Positions 20,440 through 39,936 of a stretch of 64,000 nt of DNA are shown piece after piece. This DNA comes from Pseudonocardia autotrophica. GTDB taxonomy: Bacteria; Actinomycetota; Actinomycetes; Mycobacteriales; Pseudonocardiaceae. Within the stretch, counting starts at the first letter, position 1, and every line of letters starts with the position of its first letter. Where the stretch lies: positions 3,534,001 to 3,598,000 of the forward strand of contig NZ_AP018920.1 of assembly GCF_003945385.1 (NCBI RefSeq), in the 5' to 3' direction. Both the position numbers and the translations under genes were made by a program. The notes under the pieces were generated by a model, which was not told the DNA's origin, ran no database searches, and saw only the letters and a program-made list of their open reading frames with translations.

Positions 20440-22044
20440 TCAGGCCCGCCTGCGCGCTCGGACGACGGTGTCGTAGGCGGTGACCTCGTGCCCGTCCGGG
20501 TGCGGCACCGGGTGCGGTCGGGCCTGCGCGACCTGTACCTCCCACTCGGCGTCGTCGAGCTCGGCGGCGAGCTCGAGCTCGTCGGCGAACAGGTCCCGAT
20601 CGTGCGGGCGCCGCAGCGGGCCCTCCAGGTCCTTCGGGTGATGGGCGACCAGCAGCAACGTCCCGCCGGGTGCGACGGCTTCGGCGAGCCGGGCGTAGAC
20701 GGTGCGCCGCAGCTCCGCGGGCAGGTGCAGGTACTGCGCCGTGACCAGGTCGAACGCCCGCTCCGGCAGCTCATCGCCACGCAGGTCGGCCGCCTCCAGA
20801 CGGATCCGGTCGGCCTGGCCCGCCTCCCGGGCGGCACTGCCCGCACGGTCCAGGGCGACCTGCGAGACGTCGGTGCCGGTCACCTGCCAGCCGCGGGCAG
20901 CCAGCCAGATCGCGTCGGCCCCCTCGCCGCAGCCGGCGTCCAGCGCCCGGCCGGGCTGCAGCTCGGCCGCGTCGGTAACCAGCCAGCGGTTCGGGTTCCC
21001 GCTCCACAGGTGCTCCCGGGTCCCGTAGTGCGCGTCCCAGAACCCGGCGGACCACATGTCGACACCGGCATCCCGGTGCTGGTGCTGGTGCTGGTGCTGG
21101 TCGGGCTGCCGTGCGTCGGCGACGGCCCGGGCCACGTCGTCCGCGACCAGGTCCCGGGTGATCGCGGCGCCTGCGGTCACCCCGGCCGCGACGGCCAGCG
21201 GGACGGTCGCCATCGGGTCGGTGACGTTCCCGGCCGCGTACACCCCGGGCACGGTCGTCGCCCCCGTCGGATCGGCCGGCAGATGATCACCCAGCCCGGA
21301 CGGGTGCTCGACGGTGGCGAGTCCCAGGCCGTCGAGGAACCCGGCGCGTGCCCGCGCGGGCGGGGAGACGGTCAGCGCGTCGCAGGCGACGACGTCACCG
21401 GTGGTGAGCCGGACCCCGGTCAGCCGGCCGCCGTCGGACTCGACGCCGGCCACCGGCCCCTCGACGACGGTGATGCCGCGGGCGGCGAACCCGGCCCGCT
21501 GCCCGTCGTCGGGCTGCGGTCCGGTGTGCAGGAACAGCGTGACCGCGTCGGTCCAGCGGGTCAGCAGCTGCGCCTTCATCAGGTCGTGCGGGCCGGTGGA
21601 GAGCACCCCGATCCGGGTGTCGCGGTACTCCCAGGCGTGGCAGAACGGGCAGCCGAACACGGCGCCGCCCCAGTGCCCGGCCAGTCCGTCGAGATCGGGC
21701 AGCTCGTCGCTCAGCCCGGTGGTGACGAGCAGCCGGCGCCCGGTGAACCGGTCCCCGTCGGCGGTGCTCACGCCGAACCCGCCGGACGGGTCGGCGACGG
21801 CGGAACGCACGCGGGCGTCCCGCACGGTGCCGCCGTAGCCGGTCACCTCCGCCCGGCCGATCCGGCCGATCTCGGCGGGCGGCAGGCCGTCGCGGGTGAG
21901 CCAGTTGTGCACGCCCTCGGCGGGCGCGTTGCGCGGGGTGCCGTCGTCGAGCACCAGCACCTGCCAGCGGGCCCGGGAGAGGGTGAGCGCGGCGGACAGG
22001 CCGGCGGCGCCACCGCCGATGACGATCACGTCGTACGAGGTCAT
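20440..22044 (-). CDS. Thioredoxin-reductase-like flavoprotein fused to class I methyltransferase
   Basis: 534 residues, two enzymes in one chain. Residues 1-310 are an FAD/NAD(P) pyridine-nucleotide oxidoreductase: VIVIGGGAAGLSAALTLSRA, the redox pair GCPFCHAWEY (CPFC at the TrxR position) and VPGVYAAGNVTDP before the second FAD contact. Residues about 335-534 are a SAM methyltransferase with ALDAGCGEGADAIWLAARG and FDLVTAQYLHLP. They are joined by a Gln/His linker (QPDQHQHQHQHRD). The fusion is known in actinobacteria; joint function is not settled, though detoxification of reactive thiols, metalloids or small electrophiles is plausible. ATG 22044 (MTSYDVIVIG) is the natural start. It is divergent from an XRE-cupin regulator. 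Confidence 0.88.
   Translation of the reverse strand: MTSYDVIVIGGGAAGLSAALTLSRARWQVLVLDDGTPRNAPAEGVHNWLTRDGLPPAEIGRIGRAEVTGYGGTVRDARVRSAVADPSGGFGVSTADGDRFTGRRLLVTTGLSDELPDLDGLAGHWGGAVFGCPFCHAWEYRDTRIGVLSTGPHDLMKAQLLTRWTDAVTLFLHTGPQPDDGQRAGFAARGITVVEGPVAGVESDGGRLTGVRLTTGDVVACDALTVSPPARARAGFLDGLGLATVEHPSGLGDHLPADPTGATTVPGVYAAGNVTDPMATVPLAVAAGVTAGAAITRDLVADDVARAVADARQPDQHQHQHQHRDAGVDMWSAGFWDAHYGTREHLWSGNPNRWLVTDAAELQPGRALDAGCGEGADAIWLAARGWQVTGTDVSQVALDRAGSAAREAGQADRIRLEAADLRGDELPERAFDLVTAQYLHLPAELRRTVYARLAEAVAPGGTLLLVAHHPKDLEGPLRRPHDRDLFADELELAAELDDAEWEVQVAQARPHPVPHPDGHEVTAYDTVVRARRRA
21075..21101. repeat. Hexanucleotide repeat encoding the His-Gln linker
   Basis: Four contiguous GGTGCT units plus GGT on the plus strand, read on the minus strand as alternating CAC/CAG codons (HQHQHQ). 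The tract is exactly the inter-domain linker of the reductase-methyltransferase fusion and could change length in whole dipeptides without frameshift. Confidence 0.9.
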
Positions 22045-22076
22045 GTCGAACAGGGTGACGTCCTCAGGGAATGGGT

Positions 22077-22102
22077 GGCAAAATATGTTGCCGCAATGGC
22101 AA
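22077..22102. promoter_or_regulatory. Candidate operator, GGCAA/TTGCC triple array
   Basis: GGCAA-N6-TTGCC-N5-GGCAA, three alternating half-sites making two overlapping dyads in the 67-bp gap between the fusion gene and the XRE-cupin gene. The AT-rich centre (AAATATG) stands out against the GC-rich surroundings. It probably binds the divergent regulator and controls both genes. Confidence 0.6.
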
Positions 22103-22111
22103 AGTGCTGGG

Positions 22112-22693
22112 ATGGACGACGCGCTCTCGAGCACCCTGGCCGGTGTCGGCCCCCGGCTCGCCGGACTGCGCACGGCACGCGGAATGACCCTCGCCGACCT
22201 CTCCGAGGTCACCGGCATCTCGGTGAGCACGCTGTCCCGCCTGGAATCCGGCGGGCGCAGGCCCACCCTGGAGCTGCTGCTGCCGATCGCCTCGGCACAC
22301 CAGGTCCCGCTCGACGAGCTGGTCGCCGCCCCGCCGGTCGGGGACCCACGCATCCGGCTGCGGCCCCGCAAGGCACACGGCATGACCATCGTGCCGCTGA
22401 CCGAGCGGCCCGGCGGGCTGCAGGCCTACAAGATGCTGATCCCGTGGCGCGGCGAACAGCCCGATCCGCGGGTGCACGAGGGCTACGAGTGGCTCTACGT
22501 GCTCGACGGCCGGCTGCGCCTGGTCCTGGGTGGACACGACGTCGTGCTCGGTGCGGGTGAGGCGGCCGAGTTCGACACCCACGTCCCGCACTGGTTCGGC
22601 TCCGCCGTGCGGGACGAGGCGGTCGAGGTGCTGAGCCTGTTCGGCCCGCAGGGCGAGCGGGTGCACACCCGCGCCGCTCCCCGGGGCCGCTGA
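22112..22693 (+). CDS. XRE-family regulator with C-terminal cupin domain
   Basis: 193 residues. The N-terminal lambda-repressor-like helix-turn-helix is GPRLAGLRTARGMTLADLSEVTGISVSTLSRLESGGRRPTLELL in two parts (LADLSEVTGIS, STLSRLESG). The C-terminal half is a small beta-barrel cupin (HEGYEWLYVLDGRLRLVLGGHDVVLGAGEAAEFDTHVPHWFG) that would bind a small ligand or metal. The ATG at 22112 is divergent from the reductase-methyltransferase fusion with a strong operator-like array between them, so it is the likely local repressor of that gene and of itself. Confidence 0.9.
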   Translation: MDDALSSTLAGVGPRLAGLRTARGMTLADLSEVTGISVSTLSRLESGGRRPTLELLLPIASAHQVPLDELVAAPPVGDPRIRLRPRKAHGMTIVPLTERPGGLQAYKMLIPWRGEQPDPRVHEGYEWLYVLDGRLRLVLGGHDVVLGAGEAAEFDTHVPHWFGSAVRDEAVEVLSLFGPQGERVHTRAAPRGR

Positions 22694-22730
22694 CCGGCCC
22701 TGCGCCCGTCGGGGTGAGTGCCGCCCCGGA

Positions 22731-24077
22731 TCAGCTGTCGAAGAACGACGGCACGTCCACCGGGCCGCCGGCGTCGGCGAACTCGGCGGCGACGGCGTCG
22801 CGCAGTGCGGCGTCGTGCAGCAGGTCCGCGACCACCAGCGCCAGCCCGATCGCCCCGTCGACGACGCCCCGGTCCCCGCCCGGCCCGCCCGCGGCCTGCG
22901 CGAACCCGACGGTGTGCAGGGCGGTGCCGGGCTCGGCGATCGCCAGCATCGGATGGATCGCCGGGACCCGCAGCGACACGTTCCCGAGATCGGTCGATCC
23001 GGTCTCGGACTCCGGGACCACACCGCGTGGCCACACCGTGCGGCCCCGCTGCGTCTGGTGCACCGCCCAGCGTGCGGCGAGGGTCCGGTTGTGCCGGATC
23101 GGCAGGTACGGCGGATTCGGATCCCAGGTCAGGGTGTAGCCGCAGCCGGTCATCGCGGCGGCGCCGACGGCGATCGCCTGCACCCGGGTGGCGAGGTCGA
23201 GCAACGTCTCCGGGTGCTGGGAACGCAGGTAGTAGCGGGCGCCCGCCCGCTCCGGCACGACGTTCGGGGCCTGCCCGCCGTCGGTGATGATCCCGTGCAC
23301 CCGGTCTCCGTCGGGCAGGTGCTGGCGCAGCATCGCCACGCCCTGATAGGCGAGGACGACGGCGTCCAGCGCGTTGCGCCCCATGTGCGGCTGGGCCGAC
23401 GCGTGCGCGGCGACACCGTGGTAGGTGACCTCGAGCTGGCGCCGCCCCAGAAACGGGTGGTCGGCGATGTCGTGCGCGAACGGATGCACCATCACCGCGG
23501 CGTCGACCCCGTCGAACGCGCCGGCGCGGGCCATCGTCTCCTTGCCGCCGCCGCCCTCCTCGGCCGGCGTGCCGAGCAGCAGCACGGTCCCCGCCGGGGC
23601 GTCGTCGGCGGCGAGCAGCCGGGCCAGCGCCAGGAACGCGCCGACCGCGGCCGAGCAGATGACGTTGTGCCCGCAGGCGTGCCCGATCCCGGGCAGCGCG
23701 TCGTACTCGGCGAGTACCGCGATCGTCGGGCCCGTGCCGCTGCGCCCGATCTCGGCGCGCAGTGCGGTGTCCAGCCCGTACCCCCCGACCTCGGAGCTGA
23801 TCCCGTGCCGCTGCAGCAGTGCGGCGACCGCGGCGGCCGAGCGGTGCTCGGTGAACGCGGTCTCCGGATCGGCGTGCAGACCGTGCGAGAGCTCCAGCAG
23901 CTCGGCGGACAGCGCGTCCACCGCACCTGTCAGCAGCTCCCGCGCGGCGTCCGGGGCTCCGGCGTAGGGCGAGCTGATCGGCTCGGCGGCCGCGGCCCGT
24001 GCGGCGGTCTCGCGGGTGACGGCGTCGTCGTGGGCCCGGCTCGGCTGCAGCGGGGCCTCGTGCTCGGGACAGGTCAC
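22731..24077 (-). CDS. M20-family amidohydrolase (AbgB/aminobenzoyl-glutamate type)
   Basis: 448 residues, cytoplasmic dizinc peptidase/amidase of the M20D group. Motifs include AEYDALPGIGHACGHNVICSAAV (metal ligand Asp/His and the CGHN signature), TPAEEGGGGKETMARAGAF (bridging-Glu pair EE) and the dimerisation insert around HGVAAHASAQPHMGRNALDA. Family members hydrolyse N-acyl amino acids, amidated peptides or p-aminobenzoyl-glutamate. The N-terminal 40 residues are Ala/Glu-rich and unique. It stands alone between two plus-facing genes and the exonuclease; no cognate transporter is adjacent, so the substrate is open. Confidence 0.88.
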   Translation of the reverse strand: MTCPEHEAPLQPSRAHDDAVTRETAARAAAAEPISSPYAGAPDAARELLTGAVDALSAELLELSHGLHADPETAFTEHRSAAAVAALLQRHGISSEVGGYGLDTALRAEIGRSGTGPTIAVLAEYDALPGIGHACGHNVICSAAVGAFLALARLLAADDAPAGTVLLLGTPAEEGGGGKETMARAGAFDGVDAAVMVHPFAHDIADHPFLGRRQLEVTYHGVAAHASAQPHMGRNALDAVVLAYQGVAMLRQHLPDGDRVHGIITDGGQAPNVVPERAGARYYLRSQHPETLLDLATRVQAIAVGAAAMTGCGYTLTWDPNPPYLPIRHNRTLAARWAVHQTQRGRTVWPRGVVPESETGSTDLGNVSLRVPAIHPMLAIAEPGTALHTVGFAQAAGGPGGDRGVVDGAIGLALVVADLLHDAALRDAVAAEFADAGGPVDVPSFFDS

Positions 24078-24096
24078 GCCCCGATCATCGCAGGGC

Positions 24097-25074
24097 TCAG
24101 GAGGCGGCCGCGTCCAGCGCCGTACGCAGCCGCCGCACCGAGGACTCCAGGCCCCAGCGGGCGGCCAGCTCGTCGAGCCGGTCCGGATCGGCCGGTGTGC
24201 GGGGGAGCACGGTGTCCCGGTCCAGATCGACCTGCGCGTCGGTCACCACCCGTACCACCGGCTCGACGACGCCCAGGTAGTCGCTCGCCGCCATCAGCTT
24301 GGCCCGCACCCCGGACGCCATCCGCGTGTCGTCCGGGCGGGTCACCGCGGCGAGCAGCTCGCCCCAGGAGTCGAACCGCCCGACCAGGGTCGCGGCGGTC
24401 TTGGCGCCGACGCCGGGCACCCCGGGCAGACCGTCGGAGGGGTCGCCGCGCAGCATCGCCATCTCCGCGTAGGCCGCACCGGCACGTTCGGTGGGCAGCC
24501 CGAACTTGGCCGCGACCTCCGCCGGGCCCATCAGCTCGGCCCGGTTCAGCCCGCGCCCGATGTAGAGCAGCCGCACCTGCGGCTCGTCCCGGACGATCTG
24601 GATCAGGTCCCGGTCGCCCGACACCGCCAGCACCGGCCCGGTCTCCGCCCGGTGCGCGAGGGTCCCGATCACGTCGTCGGCCTCGTGCCCCTCGGCGCCG
24701 CCGGTGCAGATCCCGGCCGCGGCCAGCACCTCCATGATCACCGGGACCTGCGGGGCGAGCGTGTCCGGCACCTCCTCCGGGACGCCCGCCTCGGCGGTGC
24801 CCGTTCCACCGTCCGCCGGGTCACCCCCGACGACCCGGTGCGCCTTGTAGGACGGCAGCGCCGCCACCCGGAACGCCGGCCGCCAGTCCAGGTCGAGGCA
24901 CGCCACCAGCTCCCGTGGACGGTGCTCGGTGACCAGCCGGGAGATCATGTCGGTGAACCCGCGCACCGCATTGACCGGTGTCCCGTCGGGTGCGGTGATG
25001 CTCTCCGGCACACCGAAATAGGCACGGAAGTACATACTCGCGGAGTCCAGCAGCATCAGCGGGCGGTCGCTCAT
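24097..25074 (-). CDS. 5'-3' exonuclease (stand-alone PolI N-terminal-like)
   Basis: 325 residues of the FEN/PolI exonuclease fold without a polymerase. Active-site acidic motifs are visible: [48 protein letters not shown] and [21 protein letters not shown], the last being the helix-3-turn DNA grip. It should remove RNA primers and flaps, parallel to PolA. Mycobacteria have the same gene near helY (Rv2090 as I recall), so this is backbone. ATG 25074 chosen; an in-frame ATG 18 bp upstream (MPDSPA) is possible but lacks family support. Divergent from the GAF-ANTAR gene over 66 bp. Confidence 0.93.
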
Positions 25075-25140
25075 GGCCGGTGAGTCTGGCATTCGTACCC
25101 CTGGGGGAGCGCCCTGCCACCACCGGTTCGGCATGATGGG

Positions 25141-25980
25141 GTGGTGGAGCACAGCGGGACGGCCCCGGTGAGCCGGGGCGAGCAGGAGTGGACCGTGGAC
25201 CGCGACGGATTCGTACTGGCACAGGAGCGGACCGGGCACGCGGAGGACGGTCTGGTCGCCGCCGGCCCGCTGGCCAGGGAATTCACTGCTCTCACCGGGG
25301 AGCTGCTGTCGTCCGGCTCGGTCGCCGACATCCTCGCGAGGGTGGTGGCGGCGGTCCATCGGGTCGTCCTGGCAGCCGACCTGGTCAGCGTCACCCTGCG
25401 GGATGCCGACGGCACCTTCCACACGCCCATCGAGACCGGCCCGGCCGCGTCCGACATCGACGCCGCCCAGTACCGCAGCGGCCGCGGGCCGTGCGTGGAG
25501 TCCGCGCGGGCCGACGGCCCGGCCCTGGCCTACTCCGACGACCTGCGCTCCGAGGAACGCTGGCCGGAGTTCTCCGAGGCCGCCGTCGGGCACGGCTACC
25601 GGTCGGTGCTGGCGACCTCGCTGGTCCCGGACGCACTCCCGCCGCGGCTGCCCGGCGCCCTCAACGTCTACGCCCGTTCCGCCGGTGCGTTCGTCCCGGC
25701 CGACCGGGACCGGCTGCTGCTGCTCTCCACACACGCCACCCTGGCCCTGGCCACCTGCACCGCGGTGTCCGCCGCAGGCCTGCAGGAGGCCCAGCTGCGC
25801 CAGGCGATCGCCTCCCGCGACGTCATCGGGCAGGCCAAGGGGATCCTGATGGCACGCCGAGGGCTCACCGCGGACGCCGCGTTCGACGTGCTCCGCCGCA
25901 CCTCGCAGGATCTCAACGTCAAGCTCGTCGAGCTGGCCGGGACACTCGCCGCGCAGCCGTCCGCACTCGACAGGGAGTGA
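25141..25980 (+). CDS. GAF-ANTAR domain antitermination regulator
   Basis: 279 residues. Residues about 45-185 form a GAF sensor ([31 protein letters not shown] start, [13 protein letters not shown] middle). Residues about 205-268 form an ANTAR helix bundle ([43 protein letters not shown]...). ANTAR domains bind paired hexaloop RNA hairpins and prevent termination; the GAF part senses an unknown signal. The start is GTG 25141 or the next GTG (25144). It intervenes between the exonuclease and dipeptidase genes. No adjacent twin-hairpin target was recognised. Confidence 0.9.
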
Positions 25981-26074
25981 CCGGTGAGGACGTGACGGTT
26001 CTCGCGGACCGCAGGTCCACACCGGTACCCGGGCGGCGGTCGCACACCGCGCGTGCCCGCATACGCTGCGAACC

Positions 26075-27202
26075 ATGACCGACGCCGTCGCCATCGAGCT
26101 GCTCGCCGACCGACTCCGCCGGGCCGGTGAGCACGCCGCCGAGCAGGGCACCGACGTGCTCTTCCTGACCCCGGGTACCGACCTGCGGTACCTGACCGGA
26201 TTCGAGGGTTCGTCGCACGAGCGGCTGACCTGCCTGGTCGTCCCGGCTGCCGGGCACCGCGCCCCACCCGCGCTGGTCGTCCCGTCGCTGGAGGCACCCG
26301 GGCTCGCCGGGCTCCCGCTGGAGGCCCTCGGCATCGACCTGGTCACCTGGACCGACGGCGAGGACCCGTACCTGCTGGTCAGTGACCTCGCGGGCGGCCC
26401 GACCCGGGTCGCGGTGGACGACGACATGCAGGCCCGGCACGTGCTCGGCCTGCGGAACGCCTTCCCGGACGTGCCGCAGTCCCTCGGTGGCGCCGTGCTG
26501 CGCGAGCTGCGGATGCGCAAGGACCCGGCAGAGGTGGCCCGGCTGCGCGCCGCGGGCGAGGCCATCGACCGGGTGCACGCGCGGATCGGCGAGTGGCTGA
26601 AGCCGGGCCGCACCGAGGCCGCGGTCGCGGCCGATATCGCCGAGGCGATCGTCGCCGAGGGGCACACCGAGGCGGCGTTCATCATCGTCGGGTCCGGGCC
26701 GAACGGCGCCAGCCCGCACCACGACGTGTCCGACCGGGTGATCGAGGCCGGCGACGTCGTCGTCATCGACATCGGCGGTCCGCTCCCGGACGGCTACAAC
26801 TCCGACTGCACCCGGACCTACGCGGTGGGCGGCGAGCCCGGCGCGGACGTGCGGGAGACCTACTCGGTGCTGCAGGAGGCCCAGGAGCGCGCCGTCGCCG
26901 CGGTACGTCCCGGGGTCACCGCCGCGGCGATCGACCGTGCCGCCCGCGAGCACATCGCGGCCGCCGGGCACGGGGCGCACTTCATCCACCGGACCGGCCA
27001 CGGCATCGGCCTGGACGTGCACGAGGAGCCCTACATCGTCGATGGCAACGACCTGGTCCTCGAGGAGGGCATGGCGTTCTCCGTGGAGCCCGGCATCTAC
27101 CAGGCCGGACGGTGGGGCGCGCGGATCGAGGACATCGTCGTGGTGACCGCGGACGGTGCGGAGCGGCTCAACCGCAACTCGCGCGACCTGGTCGTCGTCT
27201 AG
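26075..27202 (+). CDS. M24-family Xaa-Pro dipeptidase (PepE/PepQ type)
   Basis: 375 residues. Creatinase N-terminal domain to about residue 140, then the pita-bread catalytic domain with all metal ligands visible: [21 protein letters not shown] (two Asp), [15 protein letters not shown] (His), [23 protein letters not shown] (two Glu). It cleaves X-Pro dipeptides, recycling proline from peptide breakdown. The ATG at 26075 gives the expected length. It corresponds to the mycobacterial pepE position next to the exonuclease gene and ends the first conserved block; transcription is likely independent of GAF-ANTAR, whose stop is 95 bp upstream. Confidence 0.92.
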
Positions 27203-27314
27203 GGAAGGCTCGCCGTGACGCCGGCGGGCGGACCGTGGAGTTCGCCCGGCCGGCAGGTCCCGGGTCGGCGAACAGCAGCGCGGCCAAGCGCCTCGCCGTC
27301 GAGGGAGGGTGTCG

Positions 27315-27893
27315 TCAGCGGTCTCGCCAGCGCAGGGGTGAGAGGCTCACCGCAGCTTCGGCGACCCGGCGAGCGGTCTCGGTGGTCAGCGTCTTGCGCC
27401 CGGAGTCGATCCAGCCGCCAACGCGCTCGACGCCGATGTCGCGGTACTCCACGGCTTGCAGAATCATCTCCAGCTTGTCGGCGTCACGTGCGCACCGGGA
27501 TTCCGGCGAGTCCCCGCTCTCGTACTCGTCGACCGCGGCCCGCACCATCGACCGGGAAGCGTCCGGGAGGGCTTCGGTCTGGTCCGCGGTGATCGCACGT
27601 GCGTCGGGCTTGACGAGATAGTCCTTGGTGGTGTGGGGGAGGTCGCCGGTTCGGACCTCCTGGCTGTCGTGGAAGATCGCGAGCAGCGATGCGCGTGCGG
27701 CATCGGCGCCTTCCTCGGCGGCGATGAGGGCTGCGAGTTGGGCGACGCGGAGGCTGTGTTCGGCGACGGACTCGGGGTCGCGTACTCCGGCGTGCCACCA
27801 GCCGGCACGGCGGATGCGTTTGAGCACGCCGAGTTCGTATCCGAATGCTGCGATGGCAGCCGAATCGTCCGGCATCGAATCGGTTCTCCTCAT
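27315..27893 (-). CDS. HD-domain phosphohydrolase (YfbR/HDDC2-like)
   Basis: 192 residues in the HD superfamily. Metal ligands are visible as H in VAEHSLRVAQLAALIAAEEG, the HD pair in LLAIFHDSQEVRTGDLPH, and a late Asp in RDADKLEMILQAVEYRDIG. The arrangement of HDSQEVRTGDLPHTTKDYL matches the 5'-deoxynucleotidase group acting on dAMP, dGMP and similar nucleotides. An alternative in-frame Met six codons in (MPDDSAA) may be the true start. It is the only minus-strand gene in this stretch and is convergent with the dipeptidase. Confidence 0.85.
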   Translation of the reverse strand: MRRTDSMPDDSAAIAAFGYELGVLKRIRRAGWWHAGVRDPESVAEHSLRVAQLAALIAAEEGADAARASLLAIFHDSQEVRTGDLPHTTKDYLVKPDARAITADQTEALPDASRSMVRAAVDEYESGDSPESRCARDADKLEMILQAVEYRDIGVERVGGWIDSGRKTLTTETARRVAEAAVSLSPLRWRDR

Positions 27894-28045
27894 GCGCCGG
27901 TGAGGCGGGCTGCGTGGAGCACCCCGATCACTTCAATGGTGGCACAGTCACGCGAGAGCTCCGTCGGGCTTCCGGCCGTCGGGCCGGCTCGACGAGGACC
28001 GCAGCCACGACTCCAGTCGCCGCGGCACCAGGGGAGTGGGTCCGG

Positions 28046-28055
28046 GGAACGTTCC
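28046..28055. promoter_or_regulatory. GGAACGTTCC palindrome upstream of the PspC-domain gene
   Basis: A perfect 10-bp palindrome about 80 bp before the PspC start, within a run rich in GGGGAAC and GGGTAACCCC. It could be a stress-regulator site or part of an ECF sigma promoter. Evidence is the symmetry only. Confidence 0.25.
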
Positions 28056-28134
28056 GGGTAACCCCTGAGTGCAGGAGCGCTCCGCCCCGCCATGGTGGAG
28101 TGCGTAACTTCCACCCACTGAGAAGGAGACACCG

Positions 28135-28335
28135 GTGAACGTCGTGCAGCCCCACCGCCTCGTCCGACCGCGCAACGGGACGGTGATCGCCGGGGTCTGC
28201 GCCGGGATCGCCGACCGGTTCGGCCTCGGTCGCAACACGGTCCGGCTCCTGTTCTTGCTGTCCTGCCTGCTGCCCGGCCCGCAGTTCGTGTTCTACCTGG
28301 TGCTGTGGTTCGTCATGCCGAAGGCCGACTTCTGA
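28135..28335 (+). CDS. Stand-alone PspC-domain envelope stress protein
   Basis: 66 residues, essentially one PspC domain: RPRNGTVIAGVCAGIADRFGLGRNTVRLLF with the conserved GVCAGIA and RLLF motifs, then a membrane helix (FLLSCLLPGPQFVFYLVLWFVMP). PspC proteins sit in the inner membrane and respond to envelope stress; single-domain versions are common in actinobacteria. AGAAGGAGA lies 8 bp upstream of the GTG. It is followed by degenerate short repeats rather than a clear terminator. Confidence 0.88.
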   Translation: MNVVQPHRLVRPRNGTVIAGVCAGIADRFGLGRNTVRLLFLLSCLLPGPQFVFYLVLWFVMPKADF

Positions 28336-28337
28336 GC

Positions 28338-28440
28338 CCGGAGCGCTCAGCCCGGAGTACAGGGTCTGGACTTCTGAGTCCGGAGTGCTGAGCTTCGGGT
28401 ACGGGGCTTTCGAGGACTGAGCTGTCGGGTACCGGTGTGG
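28338..28440. repeat. Degenerate short repeats after the PspC gene
   Basis: Imperfect copies of a 12-16-bp motif such as CCCGGAGCGCTCAG, CCCGGAGTACAGGG, TCCGGAGTGCTGAG and TTCGGGTACGGGG follow the stop. They look like an aged version of the tidy arrays elsewhere in the window. No gene seen. Confidence 0.6.
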
Positions 28441-28499
28441 CGCCACGCGCCGGCTGTGGCGCTGCGGGGGCGGTGTGGCGCCCCTGGGACGGTGCTGCC

Positions 28500-28586
28500 A
28501 TGATGTGCCGCGTGACCGATCCGACGACTGCCGCCGCGCACCGCGCCGCGTGTCGCTGTCGTCCGGGTCCGTGCCCGCTCGGTTGA
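28500..28586 (+). CDS. Cys-rich leader peptide (candidate attenuator uORF)
   Basis: A 28-codon ORF, ATG at 28500 (or the adjacent ATG 28503) to TGA 28584-28586. It begins MMCRVTDP, has a helical middle TTAAAHRA, and ends AACRCRPGPCPLG. Four of 28 codons are Cys, three of them clustered between 28551 and 28574. It ends 25 nt before a competing-hairpin region and 114 nt before the deacetylase start. Cys-codon leader peptides that couple ribosome stalling to downstream expression are known in mycobacteria; this arrangement fits, but no peptide function is implied. The upstream ATG region has no clear Shine-Dalgarno, so it may be leaderless. Confidence 0.6.
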   Translation: MMCRVTDPTTAAAHRAACRCRPGPCPLG

Positions 28587-28673
28587 CGGCTCTGCGTCCG
28601 TCGATCTGATCCCCGCTCCGGCGGCGGAGCGGGCACCGGCCCTTTCCGGTCCCGTTCCCGTCGGCCCGCTCCG
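28574..28673 (+). promoter_or_regulatory. Candidate cysteine attenuator: three arms competing for one partner
   Basis: The arm CGGAGCGGG (28625-28633) can pair perfectly with CCCGCTCCG at 28612-28620 (9-bp stem, GCGG loop). It can pair equally with a second CCCGCTCCG at 28665-28673, enclosing a small ACCGG/CCGGT hairpin (28635-28639, 28646-28650). A third partial arm, CCCGCTC, lies at 28574-28580 and overlaps the last Cys codon and end of the leader ORF. These structures exclude one another, as in attenuators where ribosome position selects terminator or antiterminator. Confidence 0.55.
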
Positions 28674-28700
28674 GGCCCCGCACGCGAAGCGATCACACAG

Positions 28701-29513
28701 GTGCACACCCCCGATCTGTCCGGCGAGACCGTTCTCGCCCTGCACGCCCACCCCGACGACGAGTCGATCTTCACCGGGCTGACCCTGCGCCGGCTGGCCG
28801 ACGCCGGCGCGCGAGTCGTCCTCGTGATGGCCACCGGCGGCGATCTCGGCGGTTCCCGGCTCCCGCTCCAGCCCGGCGAGGCCGTCACCGACCGGCGCCG
28901 CCGCGAGCTGGAGGACGCCGCCGCGCTGCTCGGCGTGTCCCGCCTGGTGCTGCTCGGGCACCGCGACTCCGGATTGCCGGGCGGCCCCGGCACCCGGCAC
29001 CCGTCGGCCCTCGCCGGCGCCGATCCGGTCGTGCTCGGCCGCACCGTCGCCGAACTGGTCGACGCCGAGGGCGCAGGCACCGTCGTGCACGACGACGACG
29101 CCGGCATCTACGGCCATCCCGACCACCGGGCGGCACACGCCGCCGGGGCCATCGCCTGCTCGCTCACCGGGGCCACCGGCTATCGGATGACGGTCGACCG
29201 GGAGCACCTCGCACTCTCCGCCCACGACCGGCATCTCGTGCACGGCGCGGCCCGCGCCGCGGGGGTCGGGTTCGGCAGGGTCACCGCCGAGATCGCGGTC
29301 GCCGTCACCGGGACCGACGCCGATCTGGCCGTCAAGCGGGACGCCATGCTCGCGCACGGCAGCCAGATCGATCCGGCCGCCGTCCCGGACGCGTCGTTCG
29401 CCGCCGCCTACGGCTACGAGTGGTTCCTGCGCGGTGAGCGCGACGGCGTCACGCCCGCGCCGGGTGTCCTCGACGCGCTGGGCAACGCGCACCTGCTCAC
29501 CGGCGCCCGCTGA
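28701..29513 (+). CDS. PIG-L/LmbE-family N-deacetylase
   Basis: 270 residues, zinc-dependent deacetylase of the PIG-L fold. The N-terminus holds ALHAHPDDESIFTGLTL, with the AHPDDE zinc and base motif, and the third ligand lies in GIYGHPDHRAAHAAG. Family members include MshB (mycothiol synthesis), Mca (mycothiol conjugate amidase) and lipid GlcNAc deacetylases. The sequence is shorter than MshB and lacks its typical N-terminal wording, so I leave the substrate open. A Cys-rich leader ORF and competing hairpins directly upstream suggest control by cysteine supply, which would suit a thiol-cofactor role. The start is GTG 28701; the ribosome site is weak. Confidence 0.88.
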   Translation: MHTPDLSGETVLALHAHPDDESIFTGLTLRRLADAGARVVLVMATGGDLGGSRLPLQPGEAVTDRRRRELEDAAALLGVSRLVLLGHRDSGLPGGPGTRHPSALAGADPVVLGRTVAELVDAEGAGTVVHDDDAGIYGHPDHRAAHAAGAIACSLTGATGYRMTVDREHLALSAHDRHLVHGAARAAGVGFGRVTAEIAVAVTGTDADLAVKRDAMLAHGSQIDPAAVPDASFAAAYGYEWFLRGERDGVTPAPGVLDALGNAHLLTGAR

Positions 29514-29730
29514 GCGGTGGCACGCGCCGCGGGACCGGTCGATCGCACCGGATTCCGGGCGAGGACTACGCTGTCCGCACAACTGCACTCCGGCGCCCGG
29601 CGGGTGCGCACCGTCATCGGCACGTCCACCGCGGGCCGTTCGGCCGGTGTGTCATGACCCGGGCTCGCAGACAGTGAGGCTGTAAGGTCGTCCGTTGCGT
29701 CGGGCACGGGCAGGGAAGGACAGGGCGAGA

Positions 29731-30504
29731 ATGGCTGAACCACCGGGCCCGGTCCTGGTCGTGGTGCCGACCTACGACGAGCGGGAGAACCTGGGGCCCG
29801 CGGTGGCGCGGCTGCACGCCTGCCTGCCCGATGTGGACGTCCTGGTGGTGGACGACGCCAGCCCGGACGGTACCGGAGAGCTGGCCGACGAGCTGGCCGC
29901 CGACGACGACCGGATCACGGTGCTGCACCGGGCCGGCAAGGACGGGCTCGGCGCTGCCTACCTCGACGGTTTCCGGCACGCGCTCATCGGTGAGCACCAG
30001 GTCGTCGTCGAGATGGACGCCGACGGCTCGCACGCCCCCGAGGACCTCCCGGCGCTGCTCGCCGCCCTGGAGGACGCCGACGTCGTGCTCGGTTCCCGGT
30101 ACGTCCCCGGTGGCCGGGTCGTGAACTGGCCGTGGCACCGCGAGGCGCTGTCGCGGGGCGGCAACCTGTACTCCCGGCTCGCGCTGGGTGTCCCGATCCG
30201 CGACATCACCGGTGGCTACCGGGTGTTCCGGCGCTCGGTCCTCGAACAGCTGCACCTGGAGTCGGTCGCCTCGCAGGGCTACTGCTTCCAGGTCGACATG
30301 GCGTGGCGCGCCGTCCGGGCCGGGTTCCGGGTCCGCGAGGTGCCGATCACCTTCGCCGAGCGGGAGCGCGGATCATCCAAGATGAGCGGCGCGATCGTGG
30401 CCGAGGCACTGTGGCGGGTCACCTGCTGGGGCCTGTCGCACCGGCTGGGCCGGGACCTTCCCCAGCACCCGGCGGGACCGGTGGCCGAGGGCGCCCGTTC
30501 CTGA
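29731..30504 (+). CDS. ppm: Polyprenol-phosphate-mannose synthase (GT2)
   Basis: 257-residue cytoplasmic-face glycosyltransferase that makes polyprenyl-P-mannose from GDP-mannose, donor for lipoglycans and protein O-mannosylation. GT2 motifs include [41 protein letters not shown] (DxD), [25 protein letters not shown] and [12 protein letters not shown] (acceptor helix). It lacks the acyltransferase half present in mycobacterial Ppm1, as in many other actinobacteria. ATG 29731 follows AGGGCGAGA. In related genomes ppm lies beside rbpA; here 13.4 kb of accessory DNA separates them. Confidence 0.93.
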
Positions 30505-30590
30505 CCGGGCACGGCGCATTCACGCTGCCGCCGCAGCGGTGACACCGCACAGCCGGCCCCGGACGCGCCTCGGCGCCGTACCCGTCGGTC

Positions 30591-31406
30591 TCAACCGGAG
30601 CCGGGGCCTGCCCCGCCCGGCCGGTGCGGGCCGTGCTCGCCCCGGCCGTCGATGAGCGCGGCGAGCCCGTCGAGGATGCGCGCGAGGCCGAAGTCCAGCG
30701 CATCGTCCTGCCCTGCGTCCCGCGAAGCTTCGGCGAAGGCGGCCCGGACATGCGGATAGTCGTCGCCGTGCTCGGTGAGGATTCCGCTCATCACCGTGGC
30801 CAGATCGCGTTCTGTGACCGCCGCGGGATCCGGTGCGCTCGCACCCTGCTGGGCCAGGTTGCGGACGTGTCCGAGGACGAGCACGACGGCGTCCAGGCGC
30901 TCGGCTCCGGACAGGCCGGTGTGTGACAGGGCGCCGACCCCCGTCTCGAGCCAGCCGAGCTCGTTCGGCCCCAGTACCCGTACACCGGTCGAGATCTCCA
31001 GCGTCCACGGACGGCGGCTGAAGATCGCGAACAGGGCCGTCGCCCAGGTCCGCAGGCGCAGCCGCCAGTCCTGCGGTGCCGCGTAGGTGGGGGGCGGCGG
31101 GCCGATGGCCGCGTCCAGCATCAGGGCGGTGAGCTCGGCCTTGCCCGGGACGTGCCGGTAGAGCGCCATCTTGGCGCACCCCAGCTCGTCGGAGAGGCGC
31201 TGCATGGACAGCGCCGCAAGCCCTTCGGCATCCCCGATCGCGAGTGCGGTCCCGACGATCAGCTCCCGGCTGAGCTTGGGCTTCGGGCCCCGCCGCTGCC
31301 CCGGGGACGGCCCCCAGAGCACCGTCGCCGTCCGCGTCTGTCCGGCGCCGCCGGCGGTTGTCACCGGCCCGTCCATCCGCGGCCTCCTGTCGTCGGGCTT
31401 GCCCAT
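30591..31406 (-). CDS. TetR-family repressor
   Basis: 271 residues. The N-terminal helix-turn-helix is ELIVGTALAIGDAEGLAALSMQRLSDELGCAKMALYRHVPGKAEL, preceded by a basic 45-residue extension (GQRRGPKPKLSR). The C-terminal domain is the all-helical TetR ligand pocket of the TetR_C-type clade seen in tetracycline and drug regulators. It is divergent from an FAD monooxygenase, with a 72-bp gap containing a dyad centred at 31430.5, so it most likely represses that gene and itself until a ligand binds. An earlier Met (MDGPVT) could also be the start. Confidence 0.9.
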   Translation of the reverse strand: MGKPDDRRPRMDGPVTTAGGAGQTRTATVLWGPSPGQRRGPKPKLSRELIVGTALAIGDAEGLAALSMQRLSDELGCAKMALYRHVPGKAELTALMLDAAIGPPPPTYAAPQDWRLRLRTWATALFAIFSRRPWTLEISTGVRVLGPNELGWLETGVGALSHTGLSGAERLDAVVLVLGHVRNLAQQGASAPDPAAVTERDLATVMSGILTEHGDDYPHVRAAFAEASRDAGQDDALDFGLARILDGLAALIDGRGEHGPHRPGGAGPGSG

Positions 31407-31410
31407 CGGA

Positions 31411-31450
31411 CTGTGTCTACCATACGCTAATTAGTGTCCATCGGACGCAG
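31411..31450. promoter_or_regulatory. TetR operator candidate in the divergent gap
   Basis: Inner near-palindrome ACGCTAATTAGTGT (31424-31437, one mismatched pair) shares its centre with outer arms CTGTGTC (31411-31417) and GACGCAG (31444-31450). The AT-rich core is unusual in this genome. It lies 28 bp before the monooxygenase start. Confidence 0.65.
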
Positions 31451-31478
31451 TTAGTCGTCGCGCAGAAGGAGCTTCCCC

Positions 31479-32687
31479 ATGCCCACCCCACGAGTTCTGA
31501 TCTCGGGCGCGAGCATCGCCGGCCCGGCACTCGCCCTGTGGCTCGGCCGCCAGGGCTACGACGTCACGGTGGTCGAGAAGGCGCCCGCGTTGCGCCGCGG
31601 CGGGCAGGCGGTCGATTTCAAGGGCGCGACCCACCTCTCGGTGCTGGAGCGCATGGGCGTCCTGGAGCAGGTGCGCGCACAACGAACGGTGCCCACCGAC
31701 ACGATGTTCGTCGACGGCCGAGGCCGGGAGCTGGCGACGATGCCCGGCGAGTTCACCGGCGGCGATCTGGAGATCCGGCGGGGAGATCTCGCCCGCATCC
31801 TGTACGACGCGACGGCCGATGACTGCACCTACATCTTCGGCGACTCCGTCACCGGCCTGGTGCAGACGCCCGACGGCGTGCAGGTCACGTTCGAGCGAGC
31901 CGCTCCCGCCACCTTCGATCTCGTGGTCGGAGCGGACGGCATCCACTCCGCCGTCCGCCGGCTGACATTCGGTCCGGAGGAGAATTTCGTGACGCACTCG
32001 GGCTACTACTACGCGCTCGTCGATCCCGCACCGGGCGCCCGCACCCGGCCGGCGGCAGAGAACCGTGCGGCCGGGCGGATGTACAACGAACCCGGCCGGA
32101 TGGCCGCCATCGACGGCCCCGGCGACCCCGCCTTCTTCGTCTTCGCCGCACCGCCGCTGAACTTCGACCGGTTCGACCAGGACCAGCAACGAGCGGTCCT
32201 CGCCGAGGCCTACGACGGTGCCGGATGGGAGGTTCCCGGATACCTCACCGACGTTCTGCCCACCGCCGACGTCCATCTCGACTCGATCAGCAGGGTCGGG
32301 ATGGACCGCTACACGCGCGGCCGGGTCGCCCTGCTCGGTGACGCCGCGTACGGCAACACCCTCGGCGGGTTCGGCAGCGGACTGGCCGTCGTGGGTGCCT
32401 GTGTGCTCGCGGGGGAGCTCGCCGCCGCGCACGGCGACCCGGGCATCGCGTTCGCGCGATACCAGGAACTCATGCACGACTACGCGAAGATCGCCCGCAA
32501 GGCCGCCCCCGGACCGTTCCTGGCACCGCCCACGTGCACCCGGATCCGCCTGCGCAACTGGATCTTCAAGTACCGGCCGCTGCGGAGCATGATGATGAAG
32601 CTCGGCGACGACTACGCCACCGACATCGAGCTCCCCGACTACCCGCGCATCGGGACCACCGGATACCGCGCGGACCACAACGGCTGA
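31479..32687 (+). CDS. FAD-dependent aromatic/antibiotic-type monooxygenase
   Basis: 402 residues in the class A flavin hydroxylase family that includes PHBH, Tet(X)-like and rifamycin monooxygenases. Motifs are GASIAGPALALWLGRQGYDVTVVEKAP (dinucleotide GxGxxG variant with GASIAG), DLVVGADGIHSAVRR (DG motif) and GRVALLGDAAYGNTLGGFGSGLAVVGA (GD motif), the last binding FAD ribose and pyrophosphate. There is no C-terminal thioredoxin extension. Control by a divergent TetR suggests induction by its substrate, possibly a polycyclic antibiotic or aromatic. The ATG at 31479 has AGGAG upstream. Confidence 0.88.
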   Translation: MPTPRVLISGASIAGPALALWLGRQGYDVTVVEKAPALRRGGQAVDFKGATHLSVLERMGVLEQVRAQRTVPTDTMFVDGRGRELATMPGEFTGGDLEIRRGDLARILYDATADDCTYIFGDSVTGLVQTPDGVQVTFERAAPATFDLVVGADGIHSAVRRLTFGPEENFVTHSGYYYALVDPAPGARTRPAAENRAAGRMYNEPGRMAAIDGPGDPAFFVFAAPPLNFDRFDQDQQRAVLAEAYDGAGWEVPGYLTDVLPTADVHLDSISRVGMDRYTRGRVALLGDAAYGNTLGGFGSGLAVVGACVLAGELAAAHGDPGIAFARYQELMHDYAKIARKAAPGPFLAPPTCTRIRLRNWIFKYRPLRSMMMKLGDDYATDIELPDYPRIGTTGYRADHNG

Positions 32688-32715
32688 CGCCGGGAGCCGA
32701 CGGGAGGGCCCTCGG

Positions 32716-33357
32716 TCACAGCCCCGCTTCGACCGCGAGCAATCCGGCCTGGGTGCGGTTGGCGCAACCGAGCTTGACCAGCATCCGGGAGACATAGGTC
32801 TTGACGGTGGCCTCGGAGAGGAACAGCGCACCGGCCACGTCGGCGTTGCTCATCCCGCGCCCGAGGCACCGCAGCACCTCGGTCTCCCGATCGGTGAGCT
32901 CGGTGATCCGGGCCCGTGCCTCGGCGGCGCGGTCCAGATGCCCGGTCGAGGCGTGCACGAGACGCCGGGCGGCCTCGGCGGACAGCACGGTGTGCCCGTC
33001 GGCGGCGACCCGCACCAGCCCGATCAGGTCCTGCGGGGGTGTGGTCTTGACCAGGAATCCCGAGGCGCCGAGGCGCAGCGCCCGCAGGACGTACTCGTCG
33101 GCGTCGAAGGTGGTCAGTGCGACGACCGGGGGAGCGGAGACCATCGCGGCGATCCGCTCGATCGCGGTGAGCCCGTCGACGCCGGGCATCCGCAGGTCCA
33201 TCAGGACGAGATCGGGACGCTCGCGCAGGACGACCTCGACCGCTTCGGCACCGTCGTGCGCGACGCCGGCGACGGTGATGTCCCCGGCCTGCTCGAGGAT
33301 CGTCGTGAGGTGCGTGCAGACCATCGGCTCGTCGTCGACGAGCACCAGACGGATCAT
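32716..33357 (-). CDS. NarL/FixJ-type response regulator
   Basis: 213 residues. The receiver domain has the acidic pair VDDE, phospho-acceptor Asp in LVLMDLRMPGVDG, Thr in VALTTFDADEYV and Lys in GFLVKTTPPQDL. The LuxR-type C-terminal helix-turn-helix is ELTDRETEVLRCLGRGMSNADVAGALFLSEATVKTYVSRML. It is divergent from a small membrane protein, ABC transporter and sensor kinase operon (start gap 140 bp) and most likely works with that kinase, though encoded on the other strand. Confidence 0.93.
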   Translation of the reverse strand: MIRLVLVDDEPMVCTHLTTILEQAGDITVAGVAHDGAEAVEVVLRERPDLVLMDLRMPGVDGLTAIERIAAMVSAPPVVALTTFDADEYVLRALRLGASGFLVKTTPPQDLIGLVRVAADGHTVLSAEAARRLVHASTGHLDRAAEARARITELTDRETEVLRCLGRGMSNADVAGALFLSEATVKTYVSRMLVKLGCANRTQAGLLAVEAGL

Positions 33358-33497
33358 GCCCGCAGTATCGCAGCGCCGCGGGCGGTAGACCGACGGAGAC
33401 CCGGAGGATCAACTTTTTGTGGATCCCCGGGCGGGTCCGGGCGGCGACGGTGGAGGAGCGCGGATCACAGCGGTCCGCCGGACACAGGAGGTTCACC

Positions 33498-33716
33498 GTG
33501 CCCGCATCGACCGACCCGGCCACCGATACCCGATGGGCGCCCTGGTGGCGGTACGTGCTCGTGCTCGCGGTGGCGAACGCCGTCGCCCAGACGACGCTGC
33601 TGGGGAGCACCGGACCGGTGCTGAACGCGCTGGCCAGCATCGTGCTGAACGTGGTCCTGTTCATCGGCGTCACCCTATGGTGGCGGCGCCGGCACCGCGC
33701 GGGGCCGCGACGATGA
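33498..33716 (+). CDS. Small two-helix membrane protein heading an ABC operon
   Basis: 72 residues, starting GTG 33498 behind AGGAGGT. Two hydrophobic helices (YVLVLAVANAVAQTTLL and SIVLNVVLFIGVTLWW) are separated by a short loop and followed by an Arg/His-rich tail. Its stop overlaps the ABC ATPase start (ATGA), so it is translated with the exporter. Not recognised as a named family. Could be an accessory exporter subunit or a membrane input for the kinase. Confidence 0.7.
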   Translation: MPASTDPATDTRWAPWWRYVLVLAVANAVAQTTLLGSTGPVLNALASIVLNVVLFIGVTLWWRRRHRAGPRR

Positions 33717-34645
33717 TCGAGGTCCGCGATCTGACCAGGGTCTACCGCGCGACGACGGCGGTCGAGGACCTCTCGTTCCGGGTGCAGCCGGGAACGGTCA
33801 CCGGATTCCTCGGCCCGAACGGTGCCGGGAAGTCGACCACCATGCGCATGATGGTCGGGCTGGAACGCCCGACCCGGGGGTGGGCGCACATCGACGGACG
33901 CCCGATCGCCGAGCTCGCCTCACCGCTGCGCGAGGTCGGTGTGCTGCTCGACGCCGACGCCTGCCCGGCCGGGATGACCGCACGCGGCCACCTGCGCTGG
34001 CTCGCCCGCGCGGCGGGCGTCGGCACCGGCCGGATCGGCACCGGGCGGATCGGCACCGTCCTGGAGCGGGTCGGCCTGGGCGGGGCGGGTGACCGGCGGA
34101 TCGGGACGATGTCGCTGGGGATGCGGCAGCGGGTCGGCCTCGCCGCCGCGCTGCTCGCCGATCCGGCGACGCTGATCCTCGACGAGCCGGTCAACGGGCT
34201 CGACCCGGACGGGGTGCGCTGGTTGCGTGGCCTGTTGCGCGATCTCGCGGCGGAGGGGCGGACCGTGCTGCTGTCGAGCCACCTGATGAGCGAGATGGAG
34301 CAGACCGCCGATCGGGTCGTCGTGATCGGGCGTGGGCGCCTGGTCGCCGAGCTCGACCTGGCCGACATGCGTCGCGCGGCGGTGCCGGTCCGGCTGCGCA
34401 CGGTCGATCCGGACCGGGTCCTCGCCGAGCTCCGGGACCGGGTGGCGTCGGTCGCGACCAGGGCCGTCGACGGCGACGCGCTGGAGGTCGTCGGTGCGAC
34501 CCCGGACGAGATCGGTGTCGCCGCGCACGCGGTCGGGAGCGCGGTGCTGGAGCTCGCGCCGCGCGCGCGATCGCTCGAGGAGATCTACCTGCAACTGACC
34601 GACGACGCGGTCGACTACCGGGCCGGTACGGAGGTGTCCCGATGA
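33713..34645 (+). CDS. ABC transporter ATP-binding protein (exporter type)
   Basis: 310 residues. Walker A GPNGAGKSTT, Q-loop region, signature MSLGMRQRVGLAAALL (LGMRQ variant), Walker B LILDEPVNGLD and switch His (LLSSHLMSEME) are all present, followed by a roughly 90-residue C-terminal domain. The type matches BcrA/NatA-like exporters for antibiotics or cell-envelope agents. It overlaps the permease start (ATGA). Between the ATPase helical and signature regions is a five-residue tandem duplication GTGRI GTGRI caused by a 15-bp repeat; it lies in a variable loop and should not block activity. Confidence 0.93.
   Translation: MIEVRDLTRVYRATTAVEDLSFRVQPGTVTGFLGPNGAGKSTTMRMMVGLERPTRGWAHIDGRPIAELASPLREVGVLLDADACPAGMTARGHLRWLARAAGVGTGRIGTGRIGTVLERVGLGGAGDRRIGTMSLGMRQRVGLAAALLADPATLILDEPVNGLDPDGVRWLRGLLRDLAAEGRTVLLSSHLMSEMEQTADRVVVIGRGRLVAELDLADMRRAAVPVRLRTVDPDRVLAELRDRVASVATRAVDGDALEVVGATPDEIGVAAHAVGSAVLELAPRARSLEEIYLQLTDDAVDYRAGTEVSR
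34022..34051. repeat. 15-bp tandem duplication inside the ABC ATPase gene
   Basis: GGCACCGGCCGGATC followed by GGCACCGGGCGGATC, then GGCACCGTC. In frame, it adds one GTGRI pentapeptide to the helical domain. It is another member of the short-duplication pattern, here within coding sequence. Confidence 0.85.
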
Positions 34646-35457
34646 ACGGGCTCGCAGGCGAGCAGGAGGTGGGAGTGCGACCGGGCTTCGGTGCGGTGGT
34701 CGCCTCGGAGTGGATCAAGCTCTGGGCGGTCCGGTCGACCTGGCACCTGCTGGGCGTGGTCCTGGCGCTCACCGTGGGGCTCAGCGCGGTGATGGCGTTC
34801 TTCGGCAGCGCCGGTGATCTCGCGGCGGCGCAGGCCGATGGTGAGTACAACGTCGTCCTGTTCAGTGCAGGTCTGGGCGTCTGGGTGTACTGCTACTTCG
34901 GCGCGGCGCTGGTGGCGTCCGAGTTCGGCGGAACGGGCTACTACACCTTCGTGGCCACACCGGGCCGGGGACGTGTGCTGGCCGCGAAGGCCCTGATCGT
35001 CGCCGCCTGCGGTCCGGTACTCGGATCGGCGATCGCGGTGAGCGCAGTGCTGCTGACCCAGGTCGGGCTCACCGCCACCGGGGCGGTGCCGCTGGACCTG
35101 GCCGACCCGACCCTGTGGCGGGCCGCGCTGGGATACGTGGTGCTCTCGATGACCGTCCAAGGGGTGCTGGCCGCGCTCGTCGCGGTGCTGGTGCGCAACG
35201 CCATCGGCGCACTCGGTGTGGTCCTGCTGCTGCTCAACGCGCTGCCGGTGATGCTGGCGGAGTTCCTCGGGGAGACCTACCGGAACTCGATCCCCCGGTT
35301 CATGCCGGGCGCCGCGGTGGAGAGCGTCGCGGGCCTGTCGGTGCCGGGATCCGCCGGATATCTCCCGACCGGGGTGGCCGCGACCGTGCTGGCGGCATGG
35401 GTCGGGATCGCCTGGATCGCCGCGCACCGCCGGCTCGCCACGTCCGACATCCGCTGA
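34642..35457 (+). CDS. ABC-2 type exporter permease
   Basis: 271 residues with about six membrane helices, for example LGVVLALTVGLSAVMAFF and GVVLLLLNALPVMLAEFLG. The N-terminal amphipathic stretch ASEWIKLWAVRSTWHL is typical of ABC-2 permeases paired with BcrA/NatA-like ATPases (SEWIKLRSxRST motif). It pairs with the coupled ATPase as a two-component exporter, likely for a membrane-active compound. The kinase gene starts 43 bp after its stop. Confidence 0.9.
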   Translation: MNGLAGEQEVGVRPGFGAVVASEWIKLWAVRSTWHLLGVVLALTVGLSAVMAFFGSAGDLAAAQADGEYNVVLFSAGLGVWVYCYFGAALVASEFGGTGYYTFVATPGRGRVLAAKALIVAACGPVLGSAIAVSAVLLTQVGLTATGAVPLDLADPTLWRAALGYVVLSMTVQGVLAALVAVLVRNAIGALGVVLLLLNALPVMLAEFLGETYRNSIPRFMPGAAVESVAGLSVPGSAGYLPTGVAATVLAAWVGIAWIAAHRRLATSDIR

Positions 35458-35499
35458 CATGTCCCACGGATCCGGCGCGAGTGCGCAAGGCTGGGCGTC

Positions 35500-36717: not shown

Positions 36718-36905
36718 TCGGACGCTCGGGCCGACCCGGCCGGTCCGGGACGGCCGGAACCGCTGGTGCTCGCCGCGGGCAGCACATGACACTGTCGACG
36801 CAGAGTGGTGGACGGCCCGGACGCCGACGCCACGGGTCGTGCAGCCGGCACGACCGGAATGGATGCGGCCCGTGTTGCCGCAGGCGAAGAGGGAGCCGAA
36901 CGCTG

Positions 36906-39935: not shown

Positions 39936-39936
39936 C

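Follow-up and report, generated by a model that had tools for sequence, protein, structure and literature searches.

Ahead of a gene for a PIG-L/LmbE-type deacetylase or amidase, Pseudonocardia autotrophica carries a short open reading frame (ORF) with several cysteine codons. Does this ORF act as a leader that senses the supply of cysteine and sets the expression of the enzyme, and through which RNA structures could it do so? We addressed these questions in a 64-kb window, meaning the whole stretch of 64,000 nucleotides that was analysed, and in related genomes. An earlier note on the locus had described a 28-codon Cys-rich leader followed by an RNA arm with three mutually exclusive pairings, and had stated that leaders with Cys codons regulate genes in mycobacteria. 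The latter agrees with the available text of two sources (PMC4633059, PMC9031893). Shell et al. 2015 proposed polycysteine leaderless short ORFs (sORFs) as Cys-responsive attenuators in mycobacteria, where, in the part of the paper at hand, Cys upstream ORFs (uORFs) precede cysA2, Rv0485 and nirA (PMC4633059), and passages of later papers cite Canestrari et al. 2020 for attenuators of this kind (PMC9031893, PMC9094748, PMC13236596).

Results

The leader ORF and its predicted start

The PIG-L gene lies at 28701-29513 on the forward strand, starts with GTG and shows no evident Shine-Dalgarno sequence; upstream of the leader and the PIG-L interval is a PspC gene (28135-28335). The 28-codon ATG ORF of the earlier note does exist at 28500-28586, but its ATGATG overlaps a conserved -10-like element. 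We therefore rejected ATG 28500 as the leader start and took GTG 28512 as the conserved one. With the start moved, the leader (28512-28586, forward strand, TGA stop) has 24 codons, encodes the peptide MTDPTTAAAHRAACRCRPGPCPLG and holds three Cys (codons 14, 16 and 21) instead of four. The predicted -10 element CATGAT (28499-28504, forward strand) lies 7 nt 5' of this GTG. By an admittedly loose criterion ([CTG]A, any three, T), a -10-like hexamer was present 6-8 nt 5' of the start in all 55 Pseudonocardia loci that could be read, at 7 nt in 46 of them, and it begins with CA in 52; a search of 28330-28760 gave no match to a full sigma-70 promoter. Since the hexamer is just upstream, the mRNA probably begins at the leader start codon, and the PIG-L mRNA is probably leaderless, with a predicted transcription start site at the leader GTG. 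When both strands of the window were scanned for ORFs of 15-40 codons that have a -10-like hexamer and hold three or more Cys in their last 16 codons, the leader ORF, with three nested starts, was the sole one that fitted.

Conservation of the leader within Pseudonocardia

The window PIG-L protein is 93% identical to a protein of Pseudonocardia sp. NPDC049635, and the closest named loci are Pseudonocardia. A search of 59 other genomes of the genus yielded a clear orthologue in 57; two genomes (G006 and G029) gave distant matches only, and in G021 the gene is split across two contigs. Upstream DNA was taken for the 57 orthologue loci and the window, of which 55 were readable; L011, L012 and L056, at contig ends, were left out of all leader counts, and L058-L060, from other families, out of the Pseudonocardia counts. 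Every one of the 55 readable loci has a Cys-rich leader before PIG-L. The leaders are 19-38 codons long and start with GTG in 51 cases and ATG in four. They hold 2-8 Cys each (295 Cys in 1344 residues), counts that are not blind because the score used for picking leaders rewarded Cys (and the -10 hexamer), and with adjacent Cys codons in 51 of 55 they show the Cys clustering that characterizes the polycysteine leaderless sORFs. The commonest leader type in the genus reads M[IT]DRT...CCPGCC, and a CPG core, chiefly as CCPGCC, occurs in 39 of the 55. The rare codon TGT accounts for 184 of the 295 leader Cys codons; in 29 ORFs picked from the window by script it accounts for 17 of 116. The odds ratio is 9.7, in a comparison in which the species give non-independent evidence as the leaders are related.

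The upstream neighbour of the leader varies by species, being either PspC directly or an intervening ORF that we take to be an amidohydrolase; leader and PIG-L remain paired. The strict core CCPGCCRC was matched once each in 16 of 62 genomes, and the reversed control gave two matches in the same 62. Fifteen of the 16 matches are in same-genus genomes (38 of these were scanned), all at the PIG-L leader, while the sixteenth falls within another ORF, presumably grpE. As in the window, PIG-L has no evident Shine-Dalgarno sequence in Pseudonocardia. In L049, L050 and L051 the start codon is directly preceded by GATCACCTCC, which looks like the very 3' end of 16S rRNA and is thus the reverse of a Shine-Dalgarno sequence, which would pair with that end. 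The PIG-L matches in G025, G031 and G052 each contain one in-frame stop behind an intact leader; that of G031 is close to the C-terminal end and so may simply be the end of the gene. On the downstream side, window interval 29513-29695 lacks an ORF seen in L065:3351-4964 between PIG-L and a glycosyltransferase-2 gene. Judged by spacing, many relatives have an extra ORF at this place, and the one in L065 is presumably apolipoprotein N-acyltransferase-like.

Pairings between leader and gene start in Pseudonocardia

Two pairings that could sequester the start region recur in the genus. The first, P0, joins the mRNA 5' end GUGAUCG to GAUCAC before the PIG-L start, and the second, P2, joins the Pro-Gly codons of the leader to CCCCGG or GACCC 3' of the leader stop. 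In the 55 loci, with ancestry ignored, P0 scored -15.9 kcal/mol with its own partners vs -14.8 with swapped ones and P2 scored -30.4 vs -29.0; in both cases 0 of 5000 permutations reached the value of the own partners. ATC as the second leader codon is concordant with GATCAC at 48 of 54 loci. When ancestry was allowed for (L061 being left out of the tree), about three of four independent changes in P0 went together, with a median p of 0.25. For P2, all nine nearest loci, that of the window included, form 10-11 of 11 core pairs, and L005 shows one compensatory change in which a Cys codon has become Tyr and the RNA pair is kept. In 42 other loci (L010, L015, L057, L061 and the nine nearest left out) P2 complementarity was 6.33 vs 5.66 for shuffles, of which the highest of 100 reached 6.05, and vs 6.37 for swapped partners; as it exceeds shuffles but not swapped partners, P2 is conserved without covariation there. 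Taken together, the aligned loci point to P0 and P2 as conserved sequestering pairings, for which the covariation tests are only suggestive. The alignment of relatives that the earlier note had called for thus turned up conserved pairings with weak covariation.

We then simulated a ribosome stalled on the Cys codons (L061 left out). In the nine nearest loci a stall alone raised or lowered the predicted openness of the PIG-L start in none, and a stall plus a queued ribosome raised it in eight of nine. Among the other 45 Pseudonocardia loci, 13 went up and two down upon stalling, and 23 up and five down when the queue was added, with openness changing from 0.45 to 0.54. Shuffled intervals in the stall test gave 15 of 54 up and nine down.

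The allele of the window

The window's own allele is an exception among its nearest relatives and a weak case. Of its three leader Cys codons none are adjacent, so it has no CC. GATCAC is present at 28691-28696 (forward strand), the position of the P0 partner that pairs with the mRNA 5' end GUGAUC in relatives, but P0 is mismatched here owing to ACC at leader codon 2; its weight is 0.02, as against 0.86-1.15 in the eight other nearest loci. Predicted openness of the start was 0.48 for the full RNA, 0.44 with a stall and 0.46 with a stall and a queue, and no start-sequestering helix was predicted in this allele. With its few Cys codons it may respond weakly.

P2 is in the minimum free energy fold of 28512-28703: its 5' arm (28565-28579, forward strand), made of leader Gly-Pro-Cys-Pro codons, pairs with the 3' arm AGCGGGCACCGGCCC (28628-28642, forward strand), although the stability of this fold does not exceed that of shuffles (z -1.34). 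When 28587-28703 is folded without the leader, 28626-28639 pairs instead with 28646-28658 (forward strand; z -1.03, not clearly above shuffles). Because P2 and this hairpin exclude each other, the idea of competing arms put forward for this locus was right in spirit: exclusive structures are predicted, with partners other than those claimed. The 3' arm of P2 overlaps the arm CGGAGCGGG of the earlier proposal.

Leaders before PIG-L beyond the genus

A search of 394 genomes of the class (window genome included; E up to 1e-40) returned a PIG-L match in 24 other genomes. The clearest leaders are those of family f34. One of its members, L186, shares an identical protein with Jiangella mangrovi; from this single member we call the family, by inference, Jiangella-type. 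All 20 PIG-L orthologues of f34 are preceded by a leaderless-type leader that ends in CCCCR, CCCRCR or similar, and all 20 carry CAGCAGG before the PIG-L start, a motif type that is absent in Pseudonocardia, where P0 and P2 are found instead. The stretch of Cys codons can form 7-10 unbroken pairs with CAGCAGG (G-U allowed) in 20 of 20 loci, and 16 of the 20 leaders contain an exact CCUGCUG. In the 17 loci scored (L201, L204 and L205 left out), this pairing was predicted at 0.86-1.00. A simulated stall on the Cys codons, run on all 20 loci, raised mean openness of the start from 0.28 to 0.47, with 19 up and none down. In shuffled intervals the start was already open, at 0.47, and moved to 0.51 with the whole 5' part covered (nine up, two down). 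At L186 the leader would serve PIG-L alone, since the next likely downstream gene is on the opposite strand.

Outside f34 the picture is mixed. Inspection by eye gave CSCCCCR at both f28 loci, where our script saw no -10 at the set spacing. No poly-Cys leader was present before the PIG-L orthologues L203 and L207, and none with Cys was seen by eye at L098-L101. Leaders with three Cys occur at the f10 locus L058 and in an Actinomycetales MAG (L097), and leaders with one Cys in Geodermatophilus (L096) and at the f9 loci L059 and L060. The f9 leader reads M[IT]VDGSYWVGRRAHHFDQRCR and has, with its single Cys, a different conserved core; perhaps it senses something other than Cys.

Other Cys leaders in the window genome and at mycothiol genes

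We found no second copy of the PIG-L leader in the window genome: a loose Cys pattern matched 93 times vs 83 for the reversed control, and among nine PIG-L loci of that genome only the window PIG-L has this leader. At the MshB locus an ORF of 41 codons lies about 650 nt upstream; its three Cys are scattered, and it was left uncounted. The mycobacterial gene Rv0485 is followed by mshA. Within 1.5 kb upstream of mshA at 12 same-genus loci there was no clustered Cys leader (two ORFs with two Cys each at L220 were left uncounted).

Two further leaders were observed in the window genome. At L253 (G000:C1, about 534724, minus strand) a Cys leader, MNWPLTRRRAVDLCRLAGCLCLDS, with TACCCT 7 nt upstream, precedes a DUF1416 operon, whose protein we take to be of SseC type; of the 14 other same-genus loci, each examined over 1.5 kb, 12 have this leader too. 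At L168:7961-8047 a one-Cys leader, MHALRLRLVARRHVDLNRTRSALCRRPS, precedes an operon with cysH of which the first gene is presumably sulfite reductase-like. The DUF1416 leader (RRRxVDLCRxxxCLC) resembles that of PIG-L in having a -10 hexamer 6-7 nt before its start and Cys at its C-terminus, and differs from it in its unrelated peptide motif, its three Cys and its target.

The PIG-L enzyme

The PIG-L protein belongs to PF02585 (80 bits vs a cut-off of 28.2). Like MshB and Mca, which it resembles in family, it has the LmbE metal-site motif of HxDD plus H, and the motif is kept across the proteins compared (H[AP]HPDDE in 65 of 65 proteins, GHPDH in 64 of 65). Among curated families it scores highest to MshB (TIGR03445; 76.4 bits, cut-off 224.35) and Mca (TIGR03446; 73.9 bits, cut-off 277.15). 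These scores are far below the cut-offs, and the window genome encodes a genuine MshB and a genuine Mca elsewhere (287.9 and 493.2 bits, respectively); we therefore rejected MshB or Mca as the identity of the protein. LmbE enzymes identified up to the date of a review are described, in the part of it available to us, as acting on N-acetyl- or N-acyl-glucosamine cores (PMC4101496).

Discussion

Our results point to the leader as a likely Cys-responsive attenuator of PIG-L that would act mainly at translation, a reading that draws on comparative sequence analysis and simulated folding. The earlier proposal of a Cys-sensing leader ahead of PIG-L is strongly supported by its recurrence at 55 of 55 Pseudonocardia and 20 of 20 f34 loci. 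RNA polymerase is predicted to start at GTG 28512, so that the mRNA would be leaderless and would open with the reading frame of the short, Cys-clustered peptide. With charged Cys-tRNA plentiful, ribosomes would clear the leader and the leader RNA would fold onto the PIG-L start region and close it. When Cys is short, a ribosome would halt on the Cys codons and further ribosomes would queue at the mRNA 5' end. The leader arms would then be covered, the start region would open and the enzyme would, we infer, be made. In the Jiangella-type loci the masking arm would be the Cys codons themselves, through CCUGCUG or a shifted stretch pairing with CAGCAGG, and in Pseudonocardia the mRNA 5' end together with the Pro-Gly codons. 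A related arrangement occurs in mycobacteria, for which Canestrari et al. 2020 (Mol Microbiol 114:93) reportedly found that ribosomes stalling on Cys codons lift the masking of the ribosome binding site.

Could the locus instead work by transcription attenuation, with a stalled ribosome picking between three competing arms of which one hairpin halts RNA polymerase? The arms are exactly where they had been placed (CCCGCTCCG at 28612-28620 and again at 28665-28673, CGGAGCGGG at 28625-28633 and CCCGCTC at 28574-28580); they exclude one another, and the exclusion of P2 by the hairpin after the leader stop likewise suits such a switch. Yet CGGAGCGGG occurs in one of 55 loci, that of the window genome, and CCCGCTCCG in four of 55, and the window locus is the only one of the 55 whose leader-gene interval holds a perfect hairpin of 8 bp or more (loop 3-10), so we rejected the hairpin set as the conserved switch; in relatives the leader ORF was kept and the paired arms were not. 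The hairpin CCCGCTCCG-GCGG-CGGAGCGGG (28612-28633, forward strand), partly formed in predicted folds, falls by our reading in a part of the interval that is missing from L002-L006, the interval being 114 nt in the window vs 84-94 nt in those loci and 113-117 nt in L007-L009. Across the 64 kb of the window, 9-mers that have a single reverse complement no more than 60 nt away are common (693 positions, in 177 of 320 200-nt bins), but those with at least two reverse-complement copies within 60 nt are rare (five positions). A search for intrinsic terminators (hairpin and T run) found no terminator-like site in 28330-28760, for which reason we rejected an intrinsic-terminator attenuator of the trp type and prefer translational control. 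The three-arm mechanism is thus quite improbable in our view. A known Rfam element was also rejected, with no match at the gathering score in positions 20000-40000 of the window. What had first been seen here thus holds in its main point and errs in its details; it is partly confirmed as an observation and partly supported as an interpretation.

Two other readings do without cysteine sensing by RNA. If the Cys-rich peptide itself acted, for instance as a metal- or thiol-binding micropeptide, gene order would reflect a joint function, and the frequent CPG core would be explained. We consider this very improbable, since outside the genus the peptide has a different sequence (f34 has CCCCR) and the nearest clade has 2-4 Cys; the use of rare codons and the CCG GGG codons, which are nearly fixed and have a complementary arm in non-coding sequence, suggest selection at the level of RNA, as does the L005 leader, which lost a Cys and kept the pair. 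Alternatively a leaderless upstream ORF may merely deliver ribosomes to the PIG-L start. The lack of an evident Shine-Dalgarno sequence in Pseudonocardia and the distance of 48-62 nt from leader to PIG-L start in 42 of 55 loci would fit, but mere delivery leaves the clustering of Cys, the enrichment of TGT and the CAGCAGG complement unexplained and is quite improbable.

A Cys-responsive attenuator would place the PIG-L leader next to the mycobacterial polycysteine sORFs, with which it shares a leaderless RTG start (predicted here), a cluster of Cys codons and a downstream gene. It differs from them in occurring in another genus and other families, in its PIG-L target and in its unrelated peptide sequence, and further in that Pseudonocardia shows no evident Shine-Dalgarno sequence and has a masking arm predicted to be mainly the mRNA 5' end. 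The Cys uORFs of cysA2, Rv0485 and nirA are likewise leaderless, Cys-enriched and conserved, but precede cysteine-metabolic or hypothetical genes, and PIG-L is not named among their targets in the available text of Shell et al. 2015 (PMC4633059). The literature searched gave no report of a Cys leader before a PIG-L gene in Pseudonocardia; as it names no such locus, we regard this as a known class of mechanism with a new target.

From the point of view of function, the leader would take Cys-responsive leaderless attenuation beyond mycobacteria into two further actinobacterial groups and to a new target gene. In the Jiangella-type loci the same bases would serve as sensor codons and as the arm that masks the start, a compact design. 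It would also offer a functional handle on the widespread PIG-L family, so far listed only by family in the sources named. The leader may link the enzyme to thiols, and probably the enzyme raises the supply of Cys or handles a thiol. One speculation, which we hold to be doubtful, is that PIG-L represents a third mycothiol-type LmbE enzyme that is induced on depletion of charged Cys-tRNA and cleaves mycothiol or its conjugates, so that cysteine would be released from the thiol reserve of the cell. If this were true, a cysteine-salvage branch under ribosome-stalling control would be conserved from Pseudonocardia to Jiangella. More generally, a Cys-responsive leader predicts a role of PIG-L in cysteine or thiol balance.
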